From IMG/VR virus record IMGVR_UViG_3300031746_000043, positions 1 to 46,400 of that record: a stretch of 46,400 bases of DNA; one strand, given 5' to 3'. Under the pieces are notes generated by a model, which was not told the DNA's origin, searched no databases, and saw only the letters and a program-made list of their open reading frames with translations. This DNA comes from a virus. Shown piece after piece: positions 3,350-46,094 of the stretch (the first letter of the stretch is position 1; each line of letters starts with the position of its first letter). Both the position numbers and the translations under genes were made by a program.

Positions 3350-3389
3350 TTGTTGCCTCCTTTCAATTATTATTTAATAAATATTAGTT

Positions 3390-3518
3390 TGGTTTGGATT
3401 GTTCTGGTTTGTTGTGTTCTAAACTATAATGTTTTACAATTTTGAATTGTAGTGTATTGGCTTGAGCTAAATTGTGGTGATTTGAGCTCTATGTTTTGCT
3501 ATGTTTTGCTCTATGATG
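3390..3518 (-). repeat. Period-5 array B: degenerate CANNN pentamers in sense orientation
   Basis: Written on the plus strand, T recurs every 5 bases, usually followed by G. TG is at 3390, 3395, 3400, 3405, 3410, 3415 and 3430, with TA at 3420, 3425 and 3435. After a shift the series is 3443, 3448, 3453, 3458, 3463, TA 3468, 3473, 3478, 3483. After a second shift it is 3492, 3497, 3502, 3507, TA 3512, 3517. Other bases vary. In the leftward transcript this is CANNN repeated. The last units overlap the 3' end of the C2H2 gene at 3489-3647. Confidence 0.85.
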
Positions 3519-3647
3519 TTTCTGCTGAGTATGGGTTTTCAAATTATATTCAACTTGACTTTCTGATGTCCCTTTAATCTCTCTCTTACAAATAGGGCAT
3601 CTCTTTTTATATTCTAATCTTTCAATTATTTTCTTTTTTGATTTCAT
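3489..3647 (-). CDS. C2H2-type zinc-finger mini-protein, 52 aa
   Basis: 52 aa. CPIC (residues 17-20) followed at zinc-finger spacing by HTQQKH gives a C2H2-like site, framed by basic residues (MKSKKKIIERLEYKKR at the start, RAKHSKT at the end). The start overlaps the stop of the membrane gene upstream by 4 bases (ATGA). Probably a nucleic-acid binder. Its last codons are built from the period-5 array. Confidence 0.65.
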   Translation of the reverse strand: MKSKKKIIERLEYKKRCPICKREIKGTSESQVEYNLKTHTQQKHHRAKHSKT

Positions 3648-3829
3648 TTTTTATCCCTTAAAAACCATTTTAATGTAGTATAAATTATAGTTGAAAAGAC
3701 TAATCCAAGAACAATATGTTTAATTTGAATTTTACCATCAAAACCCAACTGACTAATAATGGAAGTAATTATAGTTATTATCCATAACACTAAATACATT
3801 ATTATGTTTATTTTAGTTTGTTTCTTCAT
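3644..3829 (-). CDS. Two-pass membrane protein, 61 aa
   Basis: 61 aa (MKKQTKINIIMYLVLW...) with helices at about 8-26 and 37-54 and a basic C-terminus (LRDKK). The first gene downstream of period-5 array A. Function unknown. Confidence 0.6.
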   Translation of the reverse strand: MKKQTKINIIMYLVLWIITIITSIISQLGFDGKIQIKHIVLGLVFSTIIYTTLKWFLRDKK

Positions 3830-3845
3830 CCAAACATAGTTCCTC

Positions 3846-3870
3846 TTATTTTCTTTTTTGATTTCATTTT
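3846..3870 (-). repeat. 25-bp copy of the C2H2 gene start
   Basis: This segment is identical to 3626-3650, which carries the start codon and first codons of the C2H2 mini-gene. Here the frame runs only MKSKKKIRGTMFG and stops. It is a short duplication or a remnant of a lost paralogue. Confidence 0.8.
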
Positions 3871-3877
3871 ATGAGTC

Positions 3878-3998
3878 TGCACTGTTTTGCATTGTCCTGA
3901 TTTGCTTTGTCTTGTTATGAATGTCTTGCTTTGTTGTGTAATGGAATGGTTTGTTATGATGTGTTGTGAACAGTGCTATTCTGTAATTCTGTGTGTTG
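3878..3998 (-). repeat. Period-5 array A: 19 consecutive CANNN pentamers in sense orientation
   Basis: On the plus strand TG starts at 3878, 3883, 3888, 3893, 3898, 3903, 3908, 3913 and 3918. After one 4-base step it starts at 3922, 3927, 3932, 3937, 3942, 3947, 3952, 3957, 3962 and 3967, with further in-phase hits at 3982, 3992 and 3997. The three bases between the TGs vary (GCA, TTT, TCC and so on). The leftward transcript would read CANNN repeated, almost without stable structure. It fills the gap upstream of the 61-aa membrane gene. Confidence 0.9.
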
Positions 3999-4022
3999 AT
4001 AACTCATAGACTATTAGACTAT

Positions 4023-4397
4023 TTAAGCTTTTCTACTCAAATTCATATCTATTAAATGTTGAAGCGCTTCTAACATTGCCTCTTGTCTGTCGTATAATGT
4101 ATTGAGCATATTCTCAACAGATACAACTCTTGGGACTGCAACTATTTGCGGTTCTTGTTTAACTTCTTGTCTTGGTTGTTCTCTTGGTTGCTGTCTAATA
4201 GGTTGTTTAGGTTTTATTTCTTCTTCCTGTTCTTCATCTTCCTCGTCACTATTTTCATCTTCTTCGTCTTCATCTCTATATTTCATAGGTTTTTTAACAG
4301 GCGCAGGTTTTCCAATAGGTTTCTTTACTGGCCTTTCGTCATCAGACTCATCTTCAATATCTTCGTAATCTTCTAAATCTTGTTTTTCTTTTGCCAT
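4023..4397 (-). CDS. Highly charged low-complexity protein, 124 aa
   Basis: 124 aa with a GGAGG site 7 bases before the ATG. Residues 6-65 are runs of Asp/Glu broken by Pro-Lys patches, followed by Pro/Gln/Arg-rich linkers. The last 35 residues (SVENMLNTLYDRQEAMLEAL) form a probable oligomerising helix. The acidic part could mimic DNA or act as a scaffold. The unspliced antisense frame over it is an artefact of the GAA/GAT runs. Confidence 0.65.
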   Translation of the reverse strand: MAKEKQDLEDYEDIEDESDDERPVKKPIGKPAPVKKPMKYRDEDEEDENSDEEDEEQEEEIKPKQPIRQQPREQPRQEVKQEPQIVAVPRVVSVENMLNTLYDRQEAMLEALQHLIDMNLSRKA

Positions 4398-10158: not shown

Positions 10159-10812
10159 TCATTCTTTCACCTCAATTCCAAGCATCTCTGATGCTATACC
10201 AAGGAACCGGCCATAGCCACAATCAAGATGGCGCCCGCCATAAGCATCACAGCTGAGCCCGAGCCTGTTGACATACCACGCCCTTAATATTAATTCTTCA
10301 TTATTTAATATTAATTCTTCATTATTAATATAAATACCCATACCTTCTTTTTGTTTTAAGAAAACTAAATTTATATATTTATATAATAAATTACCTAAAA
10401 GACATTTCCAAATCGAATGATATTTTGCTTCTTCTTTTGTTAAAAAACTATTTAATTTTAAATTATTTATATTAAACTCTTCTCCTTTTAATTTCTTATA
10501 TTGAATTTCGGTAATCTTAATTCCGCCCTTATCCAACAAGGTATTTGAATTTATTGATTTTAATAATTCACAGTCTTTTATTATTTTTATCTTACCTTTA
10601 AATTGAACTAAAGCATCACAAGTATCAAAATAATTATCTCTCCAATCATCTTGTTTTGAATTTAATCTCCTTTCTATTATTTGTTTCATAGTCATAGGAA
10701 TACGATTATCTTTAATCAATAATTCCATCTGTTTCGTATTCTCGCCATAAAACTCTTTATACTTTTCTCTTTTTGGCTGTTCATTTAAACTAAATTCTTC
10801 TTTGTCTGTCAT
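10159..10812 (-). CDS. Hypothetical protein with 7-residue internal repeat, 217 aa
   Basis: 217 aa, not recognised. The body is AT-rich and lysine-rich, but the last 45 residues (RAWYVNRLGLSCDAYGGRHL...) are encoded by clearly more GC-rich DNA (10195-10283) and look strongly conserved. Just before this lies a perfect 21-bp tandem duplication (10284-10304 and 10305-10325) that repeats NNEELIL in frame. It overlaps the recombinase gene by 4 bases. Confidence 0.65.
   Translation of the reverse strand: MTDKEEFSLNEQPKREKYKEFYGENTKQMELLIKDNRIPMTMKQIIERRLNSKQDDWRDNYFDTCDALVQFKGKIKIIKDCELLKSINSNTLLDKGGIKITEIQYKKLKGEEFNINNLKLNSFLTKEEAKYHSIWKCLLGNLLYKYINLVFLKQKEGMGIYINNEELILNNEELILRAWYVNRLGLSCDAYGGRHLDCGYGRFLGIASEMLGIEVKE
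10284..10325. repeat. Perfect 21-bp tandem duplication inside a gene
   Basis: Two identical 21-bp units back to back, adding seven residues in frame to the 217-aa protein. Being perfect, it is a recent slippage product. Confidence 0.9.
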
Positions 10813-11612
10813 TTCACTTCTCCCATTATCTTATTTATCTTTCTTCGTTCTGCTTCATTAAATATTAAAGAACTTCCATAATGCGCCATAAATGTATCCA
10901 TATCGTGGCCCATTCTATAACACAGCTCTCCACTATCAATTCCAAAAGTTCTCATCCAACTACCATAGGTTTTTCTTATATTATGTGGAGAAAAGTTATG
11001 CCAATCCTTTATCCCAACCTTTTTTAGCTTTCTTTTAAGGATATTTGAATAGGAAACAACTTTGGATTGATAATATTTCTTCCTATCTTCATTATTTAAC
11101 TCATCATAATTCTTTGGAAGCTTTGAATTATCTAAAAAAATAAAATCCTTTGGATTAATTGTTTTCCCTCTAACAAATGATTTATACTCTTGAATAAAAT
11201 TGCTTGCAACAAAGAATCCTCTTGACTTTCCTATTGCATAAAAATTCTTTTTGGCTTTCCTTTGCTTAACTATCTCAAATTTAATAGTTCCTCGTTCAAT
11301 ATCTATATTCTCATGCTTTAAATTAAGAGCTTCCATAATTCTCGCGCCAGTATGCAATAAAGTTATGAAAAAGAACCTGTGTTCTTTATTCTTCAAAGAA
11401 TTAATAAACAATTCCCAGTCATCAGGAAAGAAATATGTTCTTCTATCATCTCTTACTGAATAACCTGAACCATTACTTCTCATTCCCATTTTTAATCCAT
11501 CAGTCCTGGTTTTATTCAATTTAAGAATTTGTTTGCCACAAGAACAAACAAGTAAGTTATCTTGCTCAATAAAATTATGCCTATGCGAACTATTATCTTT
11601 TTTTATATCCAT
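10809..11612 (-). CDS. Tyrosine recombinase / integrase
   Basis: 267 aa. The catalytic set is visible: Arg91 in LLHTGARIMEAL, His210 and Arg213 in HNIRKTYGSWM, His236 in MGHDMDT and the nucleophile Tyr245 in MAHYGSS. The N-terminus is short, with a possible zinc knuckle (CSCG, 23-26). It could integrate the element, resolve dimers or invert DNA. No tRNA-like attachment site is visible, so resolution of circular dimers is as likely as integration. Confidence 0.9.
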   Translation of the reverse strand: MDIKKDNSSHRHNFIEQDNLLVCSCGKQILKLNKTRTDGLKMGMRSNGSGYSVRDDRRTYFFPDDWELFINSLKNKEHRFFFITLLHTGARIMEALNLKHENIDIERGTIKFEIVKQRKAKKNFYAIGKSRGFFVASNFIQEYKSFVRGKTINPKDFIFLDNSKLPKNYDELNNEDRKKYYQSKVVSYSNILKRKLKKVGIKDWHNFSPHNIRKTYGSWMRTFGIDSGELCYRMGHDMDTFMAHYGSSLIFNEAERRKINKIMGEVK

Positions 11613-15285: not shown

Positions 15286-15663
15286 TTATCCCTCTTTCCA
15301 ATTTAAATATAAAAGCACACTAATTATTAAAATTATTTCCACAACAACAAAAATAATCCAAAACAATTTATTATCTGTTTTAATAGGCGTTGGAATATTA
15401 ATATTATCTGTTGTATTATTTTCTATTATAGGACACACAGCAGTTTGATTTTTATAAATTATAAATCCCCCACCACCCACATAAGTTGGAGAACAAGTTG
15501 GCGTTGGCGTTGGCGTTTCATAATAATAACCATAAGAATATCCATAGCCATAACCATAACTTTCAGTTCCAACAAGAGTTCCATTAAATCCCGATACAAT
15601 TAATAAACATAATATTCCTATTGAAATTAATACCGGACCCAAAAAAGTTTGAAAATAACTCAT
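15286..15663 (-). CDS. Surface protein with Tyr-Gly and Thr-Pro repeats, 125 aa
   Basis: 125 aa with a membrane or signal segment at 7-26, then a low-complexity outer region: alternating Tyr-Gly (about 35-47), Thr-Pro repeats (about 50-57), a GGGG stretch and sequons, and a C-terminal membrane helix (about 100-120). It would display a short flexible ectodomain on the cell or virion. An AGGAG site lies upstream. No family recognised. Confidence 0.65.
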   Translation of the reverse strand: MSYFQTFLGPVLISIGILCLLIVSGFNGTLVGTESYGYGYGYSYGYYYETPTPTPTCSPTYVGGGGFIIYKNQTAVCPIIENNTTDNINIPTPIKTDNKLFWIIFVVVEIILIISVLLYLNWKEG

Positions 15664-16454
15664 TTTAAACTCCTATAACTTATAAATCTTTTTCTGCCCT
15701 CATCACTTTCAGTTAAATACTGAATACAAATCTCACAATAACCCTGCGTATCAATTAAATTCTTAACTATTTGTCCGTTATGCCCTGCAATCTGCAAACA
15801 ATTATTCTCGTCGTCTGTTGCTCTAATTCCAGCATTATTAATTGTATAAGCACTAACTTTTAAATAACCCTCTTGAAAAAACTTACATTTTAACCACGAC
15901 TTACTTCGCCGTCTTTCATAAAAAGAATTTATATCCTTAATTACAATACCCTCACCATTATTCTCTTTTGCTTTTATTAACATCTCTTTAATCTCCCCAA
16001 ATTCAGCAATTTTAATTAATTTAAATTGTAATGGTTTAATTAAATCACAAAGAATTTTATATCTCTCTTTTAATGGTTTCATTATTAAGTTTTCATCACC
16101 AATTTTTAAAATATCAAAAGCCATAAAATAACACTCAACTTTTGAACTATCAATTTTATCTTGTTTTGATAATCCAGCTCTTGTCTGCAAAGTATTAAAA
16201 TTTCCGTCAGAAGATATAATTTCGCCGTCAAGAACGCACTCGCAGAATAAAGATAATTCTTTTACTATCTCTTTAAATTTATTTGTAATATTATTAATAC
16301 TTCTATTTATTAAAATAACTTCGCCGTCGTAATCTACATAAGCCATACATCTCACCCCATCATATTTTTGCTGTGCTTTATACTTCTCGCAATTTAATTT
16401 TAATGCTTCAACTTTGGTTATGCTTTCACATAAAGCAAATATTTTTTCAACCAT
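15660..16454 (-). CDS. ATP-dependent DNA ligase (minimal, virus type)
   Basis: 264 aa. Seals DNA nicks through an enzyme-adenylate. Motif I KYDG (30-33, Lys30 nucleophile), NRS (50-52), LDGEI (75-79), FDIL (113-116), GEGIVIKD (167-174) and the lysine pair WLKCK (187-191) are present, followed by a short OB domain. There is no N-terminal DNA-binding domain, as in small viral ligases. The ATG at 16454 follows AGAGGAT. A 14-residue frame (MNKEEFEKWKED...) overlaps the upstream stop and may couple translation. It shares a region with a possible Ku-like gene. Confidence 0.9.
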   Translation of the reverse strand: MVEKIFALCESITKVEALKLNCEKYKAQQKYDGVRCMAYVDYDGEVILINRSINNITNKFKEIVKELSLFCECVLDGEIISSDGNFNTLQTRAGLSKQDKIDSSKVECYFMAFDILKIGDENLIMKPLKERYKILCDLIKPLQFKLIKIAEFGEIKEMLIKAKENNGEGIVIKDINSFYERRRSKSWLKCKFFQEGYLKVSAYTINNAGIRATDDENNCLQIAGHNGQIVKNLIDTQGYCEICIQYLTESDEGRKRFISYRSLK

Positions 16455-16496
16455 TTTATTTATTATCCTCTTTCCATTTTTCAAATTCTTCTTTGT

Positions 16497-17288: not shown

Positions 17289-17852
17289 TTATAAAACCAT
17301 TAATTGTTCTATACTCGCTTTTTCAATCCCCTGAATAGTTAGTGTTAAATGTTTAACCTTTTCTTTTTGTTTTTGTATTTCTTTAATGCTTAATATCTGT
17401 TCGCTTATTTTTGTAGTTCCAATATTCATAAATAACTCGTCGTATAATTCATTAACATAAATATAAGCAAAATACATTTTTTTTCCACCAAAAGACAAAC
17501 CGAATTTTAATGCTTTATTGCTGTCTTTTAATTCTTGTTTTAATCTATCACACTCAACATAATACATTTTAGGATTTAATAAATCCAAAACTTCGCTTTT
17601 ATCAACTTCTTTATATTTGTCTGTTTCTTTTGTTCGGCTAAATTTATCTAAAACCTGTCCGTTGATTAACATAAACGCTTTTTCTAAATGTTCGCCTGTC
17701 GCCTCATTAATAAAATAACCCTTTTCTAAATGCCCTGCAACCCAATTTAATGCGTTGCCGTCTTTATCAACAGCAGAATATTCTTGTGCGTTCTCTTTTA
17801 ACGGCGTGTATTTCAGCATAAAAGTTCCTATCCTCAAAGAATACATAGGCAT
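17289..17852 (-). CDS. Possible Ku-like DNA end-binding protein, 187 aa
   Basis: 187 aa. From residue 44 the order of features follows the Ku core: EKGYFINEATGEHLEKAF (Ku KGYE..G..V), then KEVDKSEVLDLLNPKMYYVE (Ku FV...ID....YYL.P), then a strand-rich stretch KALKFGLSFGGKKMYFAYI. The N-terminal MPMYSLRIGTFMLKYTPLK could mirror Ku GLV.vPVkly. This is a visual match at low identity and could be chance. It is strengthened a little by an ATP-dependent ligase two genes downstream. If correct, it would bridge broken DNA ends as a homodimer. Confidence 0.4.
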   Translation of the reverse strand: MPMYSLRIGTFMLKYTPLKENAQEYSAVDKDGNALNWVAGHLEKGYFINEATGEHLEKAFMLINGQVLDKFSRTKETDKYKEVDKSEVLDLLNPKMYYVECDRLKQELKDSNKALKFGLSFGGKKMYFAYIYVNELYDELFMNIGTTKISEQILSIKEIQKQKEKVKHLTLTIQGIEKASIEQLMVL

Positions 17853-20335: not shown

Positions 20336-20409
20336 TTTTCTATATTCAAGCATATAGGTTTGTTTATCTTTTATGTTAATAGATAAACTTTTCTTTATTA
20401 TCTCCCTAT

Positions 20410-20528
20410 TGATTTGTTATGATGTGTTTATCTTTAACTATGGTTTTGTTCGTGCTGTGCTGTCAGGTCTTGTGCTGTGCTGTCAGTCTTGTGCTGTGCT
20501 GTCAGTCTTGTGCTGTGCTGTGATACTG
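20410..20528 (-). repeat. Period-5 array D with 19-bp tandem repeats
   Basis: Four near-identical units (20452-20471, 20472-20490, 20491-20509, partial from 20510) whose plus-strand core is GTGCTGTGCTGTCAGTCTT. Inside each unit a T again recurs every 5 bases (20453, 20458, 20463, 20468, 20473, 20478, 20483). The run is preceded by in-phase TGs at 20410, 20415, 20420 and 20425. In sense orientation this is CANNN again (CACAG, CACAA, CAGCA). It is followed by a run of Ts and an AT-rich stretch, which also suits an iteron-type origin. Confidence 0.8.
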
Positions 20529-20821
20529 TGATTTTTTTTACTTTGCTAAATGAATTATTTAAAGCCACATCTGTTATCCTATTTTGATTTTTTCCTGCAA
20601 TTTTTTATTCTTTGAACTGCCACCCTGACAGAGTATTCGTTCTGGGCTTGTGGGCTTGTAATTAATTATACTTTGCCCTGCCCCGACGCGCAGAGTATTC
20701 ATTTCCAAAGGTTCTGGGCCTGCTTTGCTGAGAAAACCGCGCAAAATATACATATATTAATGTTACACCTGTCCAATAGATAAAAATAAGTTAAAATTAC
20801 TACTGCTTTCTTTAAAAATAT

Positions 20822-23225: not shown

Positions 23226-23295
23226 CCGTACCATACCGCACCTCACCATACCTTACCGCACCTTACCATACCCCACCTTACCATACCTCACCTCA
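23226..23295 (-). repeat. Period-5 array C: fourteen TRNGG pentamers (sense strand)
   Basis: On the plus strand the sequence is exactly 14 consecutive CCNYA pentamers (CCGTA, CCATA, CCGCA, CCTCA, CCATA, CCTTA, CCGCA, CCTTA, CCATA, CCCCA, CCTTA, CCATA, CCTCA, CCTCA). The sense strand is therefore GG every five bases with a varying middle. The repeated GG pairs could form two-layer G-quadruplexes in mRNA or ssDNA. It lies 25-94 bases upstream of the ATG at 23201. Confidence 0.95.
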
Positions 23296-23329
23296 ATCAT
23301 ATTTCTATGACTATAAGTTATGATAATGA

Positions 23330-23890
23330 TTATTTCTTTTTTTCAGTCCAGTTGATTACTTGGAATTTTCCGAATCTTCCACGCTTTGCAGGTCTCCAAT
23401 CTCCTACACCTACATTTCTTCCAGCTATGTCAAATAGTTCTTTCATTACTGGAACTTCAATTTGGCTTTCATCAAAAGTGCATTCAAATTCAACTTTCCA
23501 TTTATCAAATTGTGGTCTGTGCAAAACATTTCTTCCGTGTGTTGTTGGATTAACTGCAAGTATAGAAAAGACTTTCCATTTTTCTTTTAATACAATTTCA
23601 AATGGATTTATCTCTACACTTGAACCAGCAACTTTTGAATAGGTAGCTTTTGCACTTCCCTTACCCATCATCTTCTTTTGCTTTCCAGCTTCAACTATTG
23701 CTCCTTGAAACCAAGTTGCAGGAAGATATACTTTTCCTGTTGCATCTGAATAAAGTTTGCATTCAGCAAGCTCTATTGGTGTCATAGTTTCTCTTTTACT
23801 ATCCTTTGACTTTTCTCCAATATCTAACTGACTTGGTCTATTCATAAGTAATGGACTTATTCCTTCTATTGTTATGTTATATGTTTTCAT
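23330..23890 (-). CDS. Conserved phage/archaeal-virus hypothetical protein, 186 aa
   Basis: 186 aa with a GGAGG site. Landmarks: ITIEGISPLLMNRPSQLD, YLPATWFQGAIVEAGKQKK, FSILAVNPTTHGRNVLHRP and AGRNVGVGDWRPAKRGRFG. I recall this combination from uncharacterised phage proteins near replication genes. The beta-rich start plus the glycine-rich GVGDxRP loop is reminiscent of RAMP/Cas7-like RNA-binding folds, but that is speculative. Confidence 0.7.
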   Translation of the reverse strand: MKTYNITIEGISPLLMNRPSQLDIGEKSKDSKRETMTPIELAECKLYSDATGKVYLPATWFQGAIVEAGKQKKMMGKGSAKATYSKVAGSSVEINPFEIVLKEKWKVFSILAVNPTTHGRNVLHRPQFDKWKVEFECTFDESQIEVPVMKELFDIAGRNVGVGDWRPAKRGRFGKFQVINWTEKKK

Positions 23891-44840: not shown

Positions 44841-44901
44841 ATCACACTTCTTCTTTCATATTGGGTGAACTACTCATAACCTAACTCCTGTTGAGGTTAT
44901 G
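44841..44901 (-). mobile_element. Right end / guide-RNA 3' region of the IS200/IS605-type element
   Basis: The TnpB tail codons and the following bases form a stem (CATAACCT 44875-44882 with AGGTTATG 44894-44901) and, in sense, run on to GAGTAGTTCACCC. Archaeal TnpB genes of this kind overlap the right end and the omega-RNA scaffold at this position. The left end is not recognisable, and the gene start is coupled to a zinc mini-gene. Confidence 0.5.
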
Positions 44902-46094
44902 GCTTCTTGCTTCATAGACAACCCTTGCTCAATCTGAGTAGAGGAGTTATTCTCCACATTGGCTCGTTCCGAACCAATAAATTTAGTTTTTATGTTTATT
45001 GCAGAGTTTAGGTCTCTGTCTATCTCAAACCCACAACTTGAACATTTGTATGTTCTTATCCACAATGGCATCTTTTGAAGATTTCCACAGTTGCTACATT
45101 GTTTTGTTGTGTTCTTGGGGTCAATTTTTACAATCTTACAACCAGCGTTTTCAGCTTTTTGTTTCCATACCTTTGTATTAATATTTAATTGTTCTTCTGA
45201 ATAAATAGAATAAAAAATATTATGTTGTAAGCAATATTCTTCTAATTTTTTAATTTTTTCATTGTTGAATTTGATTAATTTTAAAGGTTTAACTTCAATT
45301 ATTTCTTTATCACCATTGATATATTCAATTTCAAAATCTGGAATGTATCTTTTAATTTTGTTATTTTTAATATATTCTAATATAATATTACATCTATCAA
45401 ATTTTAATACATTTGCATTTAATTCTAAAATTTCTAAACATCTTTGTTCATAAAAGCTTTGATAATAAATAGATTTGTTATTTTTATCAGACCAAAAATG
45501 TCCTCTATATTTAGAATTACCATTAAATAATTTTCCAGATGCAATATATTCAGAAGTTTGTTTACTTTTTAAAATTGAAAGATTGTCTTTTGTTTCTTGT
45601 GTATGTGTTTTTCCTGACATACCTTTTGAAAAAGAACCAACATATTTCATAAATTTACTATCTCTATGTTTTCCCAACCAATAATTAGTTGGATTAATTA
45701 ATTTTGCTTCTTTCATTTTTTCTCTCACTTCCAATCTTTTTGAAACATTATTTTCTCCTAATTGTCTTTTTGATAATCTCTTCTTAAATTCTTCAGTATG
45801 TTTAGGATGATTATGTCCATTAATATATTTGTTACCTTTTTTAACTTCTTTTCCACAACCACATAAACATAGTCTTTGGTTTTCCATCTGTAAAACTTTA
45901 GAATGAATATTATTCATTTCAGGAAAAACAACTTTCAAATCCAATAAATAGTTTTGTAATTCATTTTTTGTAAATCTTTCATCAAGTCCTGATAGCAAAT
46001 GATTATAAGTTTGTCTGCAAATATCAAGAGCAAAGTCTAACTTTTCTCTTACTGGCTTATTTGGATACATTCTGAATTTATATGTGAGGGTCAT
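44874..46094 (-). CDS. tnpB: Chimeric TnpB with inserted homing endonuclease
   Basis: 406 aa. Residues 1-75 are a normal TnpB start (MTLTYKFRMYPNKPVREKL, IHSKVLQMENQRL). Residues 309-406 are a normal TnpB end: YKAENAGxK-type helix, IDPKNTTKQCSNCG and CSSCGFEIDRDLNSAINI (zinc finger and RuvC-III Asp), then the SMKQEA tail that runs into the right end. RuvC-I and RuvC-II are missing. In their place (76-308) are CLCGCGKEVKKGNKYINGHN, NUMOD3-like repeats, and a PD-(D/E)XK-like core (Glu216, PDFEIEY 252-258, EVK 267-269). Not a functional RuvC nuclease as written. Confidence 0.88.
   Translation of the reverse strand: MTLTYKFRMYPNKPVREKLDFALDICRQTYNHLLSGLDERFTKNELQNYLLDLKVVFPEMNNIHSKVLQMENQRLCLCGCGKEVKKGNKYINGHNHPKHTEEFKKRLSKRQLGENNVSKRLEVREKMKEAKLINPTNYWLGKHRDSKFMKYVGSFSKGMSGKTHTQETKDNLSILKSKQTSEYIASGKLFNGNSKYRGHFWSDKNNKSIYYQSFYEQRCLEILELNANVLKFDRCNIILEYIKNNKIKRYIPDFEIEYINGDKEIIEVKPLKLIKFNNEKIKKLEEYCLQHNIFYSIYSEEQLNINTKVWKQKAENAGCKIVKIDPKNTTKQCSNCGNLQKMPLWIRTYKCSSCGFEIDRDLNSAINIKTKFIGSERANVENNSSTQIEQGLSMKQEAITSTGVRL

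Follow-up and report, generated by a model that had tools for sequence, protein, structure and literature searches.

Phased arrays in the window

The window analyzed here was a whole IMG/VR virus record of 46.4 kb, possibly a fragment, and it contained four arrays of five-base units (A to D). On the plus strand of array A, TG occurred every 5 bases at 3878-3918 (9 matches) and, after one 4-base step, at 3922-3967 (10 matches), for a total of 19. Past 3967 the phase was kept only at 3982, 3992, and 3997, with 3972, 3977, and 3987 out of phase. The first-pass annotation of this sequence had described both series, the step between them, and three further in-phase matches up to 3997, all of which were confirmed. 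Read on the minus strand, on which the neighbouring genes are also encoded, the array consisted of 19 CANNN units in two segments (3875-3968): 10 units at about 3919-3968 and 9 units at about 3875-3919, joined by a single 4-base unit (3918-3921, plus-strand TGAA).

The comparison of the lag-5 signal with shuffled sequence, which the first-pass annotation had proposed as a check, supported the pattern. Array A contained a lag-5 TG run of 10, whereas the longest one obtained when the intergenic stretch 3830-4022 was dinucleotide-shuffled 20,000 times was 7. When only the array was shuffled, a run of 10 was reached once in 20,000, without an adjoining run of 9. There were 19 lag-5 TG pairs (z = 6.3), TG pairs at lags 3, 4, and 6-9 were at or below expectation, and the only enriched lags were 5 and its multiple 10.

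CA was retained in all 19 units and the three other columns were free, with minus-strand compositions of A8 C3 G3 T4 at position 3, A11 G3 T4 at position 4, and A9 C3 G4 T2 at position 5. The anchor was thus CA only, and the adjacent columns did not form a three-base consensus such as GGY or a related motif. Because decay would erode all columns alike, free columns beside a fixed dinucleotide indicate that this is not a decayed tandem repeat; an origin as a microsatellite or decayed repeat was therefore rejected, and the earlier statement that the array is neither a microsatellite nor a tandem duplication held. A search of Rfam gave no match.

Array A was enclosed by a perfect 8-bp inverted repeat, with plus-strand arms GCACTGTT (3879-3886) and AACAGTGC (3969-3976); an inverted repeat of equal length was found in 0 of 500 shuffles. 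A possible outer stem would pair TATGAGT (3870-3876) with ACTCATA (4002-4008), although the overall duplex energy of the flanks was not unusual (z of only -1.4). The same shuffle test gave no significant closing stem for arrays B, C, or D. TATA-like boxes lay about 30 bp before the first in-phase match of array A (GCTTAAATA, 4020-4028, minus strand) and about 30 bp ahead of array C (TTTAAATA, 20556-20563, minus strand), in both cases on the CA strand. Relative to GCTTAAATA, transcription of the archaeal type would begin around 3997-4001, on the border of array A. A stretch of about 22 bp that forms the start of a small zinc-finger-like ORF (3492-3650) occurred twice (3632-3652 and 3850-3872), the copy at 3850-3872 lying immediately downstream of array A on the minus strand.

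The CA/TG phase of array A was shared by two weaker arrays, both on the minus strand. Array B (3381-3530) was a broken CANNN array (lag-5 z = 5.7) with a best run of 6 units at 3387-3416. Array C (20452-20533; z = 4.5 over 20400-20540) had CANNN units arranged within tandem copies of a 19-bp sequence, CAGCA CAGCA CAAGA CTGA, and was only partly this plain repeat. The region adjoining array C (20590-20740) was G+C-rich, with repeated CAGAGTATTC and TGGGC motifs.

A VIPR locus in the same genome

VIPR (Viral Interference Programmable Repeat) was described in a 2026 preprint as a virus-borne relative of CRISPR and proposed as the ancestor of CRISPR effectors (PMC13142463). As set out there, it consists of an RNA (vrRNA) and a protein, Vipr, which is a RAMP protein of about 20 kD borne by phages or archaeal viruses. 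The vrRNA has 9-16 units, each made up of GGY and two guide letters, the DNA target is read with one skipped base, and the proposed model places RAMP (Cas7-like) subunits on every pentanucleotide (PMC13142463). The consensus is given in the main text as GGY/NN "or a related consensus" (PMC13142463).

Array D (23226-23297, minus strand) had 13 GGT-NN units in GGT/ACC phase, which corresponds to the published GGY/NN consensus (PMC13142463) and falls within the 9-16 range. It was located about 33 bp downstream of, and on the same strand as, an ORF encoding 186 amino acids (23330-23890, minus strand). The AF2 model of this protein had a pLDDT of 92, and Foldseek matched it to Csm3/Cas7 proteins of type III and type VII CRISPR complexes with E-values down to 9e-8. 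The protein fell in the same HMM family as Viprs that adjoin arrays, including the Vipr of phage SUSP1, which is the published reference and is flanked by GGY arrays. As a positive control, the family HMM recovered the SUSP1 Vipr (ALH47069.1) at E = 1e-52, and a direct phmmer comparison of the window protein to SUSP1 Vipr gave 1e-11. Its closest relative was the Vipr of locus L148 (77% identity), itself beside GGT-NN arrays. In L148 two such arrays directly follow vipr and are followed by hairpins; the order of vipr and array was the same in the window, where the next gene directly followed array D and no clear structured 3' tail was seen after its repeats. On the basis of the predicted RAMP/Cas7 fold, the identity to the L148 protein, and membership in the SUSP1 Vipr family, array D and this ORF were identified as a VIPR locus of the GGY type. 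This classical GGT-NN array beside a vipr gene had been missed in the first-pass annotation.

Clade-specific HMMs run with filters off matched only ORF 23330-23890 in the window and found no second, diverged Vipr, although the contig may be incomplete and another Vipr could lie on the missing part. An ATPase-based search for relatives recovered only one sister virus, G001, in which no Vipr was found, so the vipr gene of the window looks more like accessory cargo than like part of the viral core. In the position that corresponds to array C, G001 had a T-poor, CA-rich stretch without 5-nt phase. The earlier suggestion to ask whether the CA phase is kept in relatives was thus only half applicable, since the nearest virus had neither a strict CA array at that place nor a Vipr, and this combination also fits accessory cargo. 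An integrase search of genome contigs gave one remote match, in Omnitrophota.

Elsewhere in the window, a 187-aa protein (17289-17852, minus strand; 51% to its G001 counterpart) had no Pfam match and was Ku-like by eye only; an ATP-dependent DNA ligase was encoded nearby (15660-16484, minus strand). At 44874-46094 (minus strand) there was a TnpB-like protein (HTH_OrfB and Cas12f1-like TNB) that also had NUMOD3 and TnsA-like endonuclease domains, a predicted homing-endonuclease-like insertion within the TnpB reading frame.

CANNN arrays and vipr genes across IMG/VR

Searching IMG/VR for runs of ten CANNN units gave at least 120 stretches. Many of those listed were microsatellites, and many others were diversified, intergenic, and present in several copies per locus. 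The proteins near the diversified arrays belonged to one family, which included ORF 23330-23890 of the window. Among the matches listed, a Vipr was encoded on the same contig in 38 of the 58 diversified-CANNN records and in none of the 48 microsatellite records; the 20 diversified-array records without a Vipr included some arrays inside ORFs. A parallel GGTNN scan found a Vipr-family protein at 52 of 68 loci vs. 0 of 31. This co-occurrence of diversified CANNN arrays and vipr genes, among the matches listed, makes a CA-type vrRNA the most likely identity of array A. It also supports the proposal of the first-pass annotation that a short fixed motif is read every 5 nt, and the filament of 5-nt subunits imagined there comes close to the VIPR model of RAMP subunits seated on each pentanucleotide (PMC13142463). 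What that annotation missed is that the free letters are probably guide letters.

Loci of the CA type were found with CAC-NN units (L112, L117, and L134) and with RCA-NN units (L018, L060, L122, and L102). Like array A, these loci had CA every 5 nt, free letters, and runs of about 10 units, and CA was on the Vipr strand. This strand relation was seen at nearly all loci with a nearby Vipr, with L020 and L082 as exceptions, and array A was likewise on the same strand as the vipr gene of the window. The mode of run length in CA-type arrays was 10, and the runs of 10 and 9 in array A were at or near it. Unlike array A, these loci had a fixed third base (CAC or R-CA), as most CA types do, and their own adjoining Vipr. 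Precedents for CA with poorly constrained third positions beside vipr genes were found in L082 and L030, in both of which the CA strand was opposite to vipr. In L082, seven CANNN arrays (10236-11162; 57 units) had almost free third positions and lay on the strand opposite a divergent Vipr; they are possibly a further VIPR motif type. Another anchor motif was seen in L023, a TCA-NN array with a Vipr on the same contig at 34.6 kb (G089).

Closing stems like that of array A were present in L122, L102, L045, and L043. Flank pairing exceeded shuffles around the CA-type arrays of L102, L045, L122, L043, and L030, and none of the 234 GGY arrays had flank pairing at z < -3. The long inverted repeats closing the CA-type arrays of these five loci were themselves a feature unlike GGY arrays. 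A 4-nt joint like that of array A was absent from the CA-type arrays compared. In arrays of the GGY type, a 4-nt unit, GGCA, separates segments of 10-12 units. GGY-NN arrays punctuated by GGCA every 10-12 units were seen in L203, L212, L147, L200, L193, and L187, where GGCA is probably the boundary of successive vrRNAs.

In a quick tree, the anchor motif tracked Vipr phylogeny. The CAC, RCA, and GGY types clustered, requiring 12 changes compared to a shuffled mean of 34, and TCA and TGY occurred once each; the Vipr of the window paired with that of L148, which is of the GGY type. Whole contigs showed no mixing: CA arrays were absent from all 50 contigs with a GGY-type Vipr, and GGY arrays from all 36 with a CA-type Vipr. 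Among the Vipr loci compared, the window alone had a long CA array together with a GGY array (0 of the 86 other Vipr contigs). Because anchor types cluster on the Vipr tree and did not mix in 86 contigs, array A and the resident Vipr are mismatched.

Target searches

When array A was decoded with 0-3 skipped bases and compared to related viruses and 2.4 Mb of loci, no target rose above shuffles, in what was a weak test. An exact gapped scan of IMG/VR with one half of array A gave zero matches. For array D, decoding with 0-3 skips gave a best match of 22/26, compared to a shuffle maximum of 21/26, and the matching locus came from the target scan itself. An exact gapped IMG/VR scan with its 18-base core gave two matches, 21/26 and 22/26 overall, which is chance level. 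Under 1-nt skip decoding, array D read as a plausible coding peptide with no stop.

Interpretation of array A

Array D and ORF 23330-23890 fit the described VIPR system directly. Array A resembles it in having tandem 5-nt units, a fixed anchor with free letters, and about 10 units per run, and differs in that its CA anchor has no clear third fixed base, it is 19 kb from vipr (most Vipr-associated arrays adjoin the gene), the contig has no matching Vipr, and no target was found. These differences, including the presence of a GGY-type Vipr only, are among the points against the explanation that we favor with some confidence, which is that array A belongs to the CA-type vrRNAs, or derives closely from one, and is separated from its own Vipr. 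In favor of it, besides the association across IMG/VR and the shared strand, are the run lengths, the 4-nt joint known from GGY-type arrays, the closing stem, the TATA-like box, the presence of a real Vipr in the window, and the looser precedents in L082 and L030. The minus strand would be transcribed into an RNA of about 100 nt, in which the CA in every unit would be the anchor gripped by Cas7-like Vipr subunits, and each unit may contribute two of its three free bases as guide letters for a gapped DNA target. Such a vrRNA would have its 10- and 9-unit segments joined by the 4-nt unit and closed by the 8-bp stem and, with its CA-type Vipr supplied in trans or lost, could be a guide, a mimic, or a relic. 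Since no Vipr other than the GGY-type one was detectable in the window, array A is probably orphaned, whether as a trans guide, a decoy, or a relic.

A pure decoy is the first alternative. Array A could be an anti-VIPR RNA that mimics the fixed part of a CA-type vrRNA and soaks up the Vipr of a rival or host, with free positions that carry no target information. The CA motif with its unconstrained letters, the lack of a matching Vipr in the contig by clade HMMs, the target searches that found none, and the several broken copies in arrays B and C are all as expected of a decoy. However, this virus has no known host or rival with a CA-type VIPR, there is no obvious reason for a decoy to have a regular length, and the target searches were weak tests, so we consider this unlikely. 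There is some resemblance to orphan viral mini-CRISPR arrays and RNA anti-CRISPRs, in which guide-like repeats are carried by a virus without a matching effector. Those elements have contiguous spacers and long repeats, unlike array A.

Alternatively, array A could be a second vrRNA of the resident Vipr, with one protein loading both GGT-NN and the plus strand read as TG-N-NN, as TGN resembles GGY. The arrays of L020 are TGYNN on the vipr strand, the quick tree placed the L020 Vipr beside that of L157, a GGY type, with support of 83, and 4-nt joints are typical of GGY arrays. Against such dual use, a CA/TG array was absent from all 50 other GGY-Vipr contigs, a Y follows TG in only 13 of the 19 array A units, and the TATA-like boxes favor the CA strand, which makes it a rather improbable explanation.

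Regulation of the adjacent genes must also be weighed. The operon at 3644-3829 could have the CA anchors in its 5' leader, bound there by some other RNA-binding protein, in a control like that of TRAP, a bacterial regulator. Arrays A-C were all upstream of same-strand genes, the TATA-like boxes preceded A and C, and the RNA inside the closing stem of array A would be unstructured; TRAP sites (NAGNN) similarly repeat a short motif at 5-nt intervals along unstructured RNA. But the TRAP motif is NAG rather than CA, the ring-shaped TRAP-like binder suggested by the first-pass annotation found no counterpart among the window proteins scanned, which included no TRAP family, and like arrays elsewhere accompany vipr genes. 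A leader element is accordingly very improbable, and for the annotation's remark that 5 bp is close to half a helical turn no evidence was found. A neutral origin, as low-complexity sequence or a decayed tandem repeat within a leader rich in CA and poor in T, would find support in the 19-bp repeat of array C and the unphased stretch at the same place in G001 but is hardly credible given the invariant CA beside free columns, runs of 10 and 9 far beyond shuffles, and the perfect closing stem.

Implications for VIPR systems

Under the favored explanation of an orphaned CA-type vrRNA, a stem-closed CA-type array in a GGY-VIPR virus might borrow the CA-type Vipr of a host or rival, as an orphan guide, or block it, as a decoy; this proposal is tentative. 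The scans across IMG/VR showed that the anchor motif follows the Vipr tree, that GGCA can punctuate GGY arrays, and that stems close some CA-type arrays. Since the vrRNA signature was spotted in raw sequence without tools, the results suggest that such arrays may be found by their 5-nt phase alone. Should array A truly be a CA-type orphan carried by a GGY-type virus, it would give a first indication that VIPR systems use each other's parts or take measures against one another; if it acts in trans as a guide or as a decoy, it would be the first case of a vrRNA that works across such systems.
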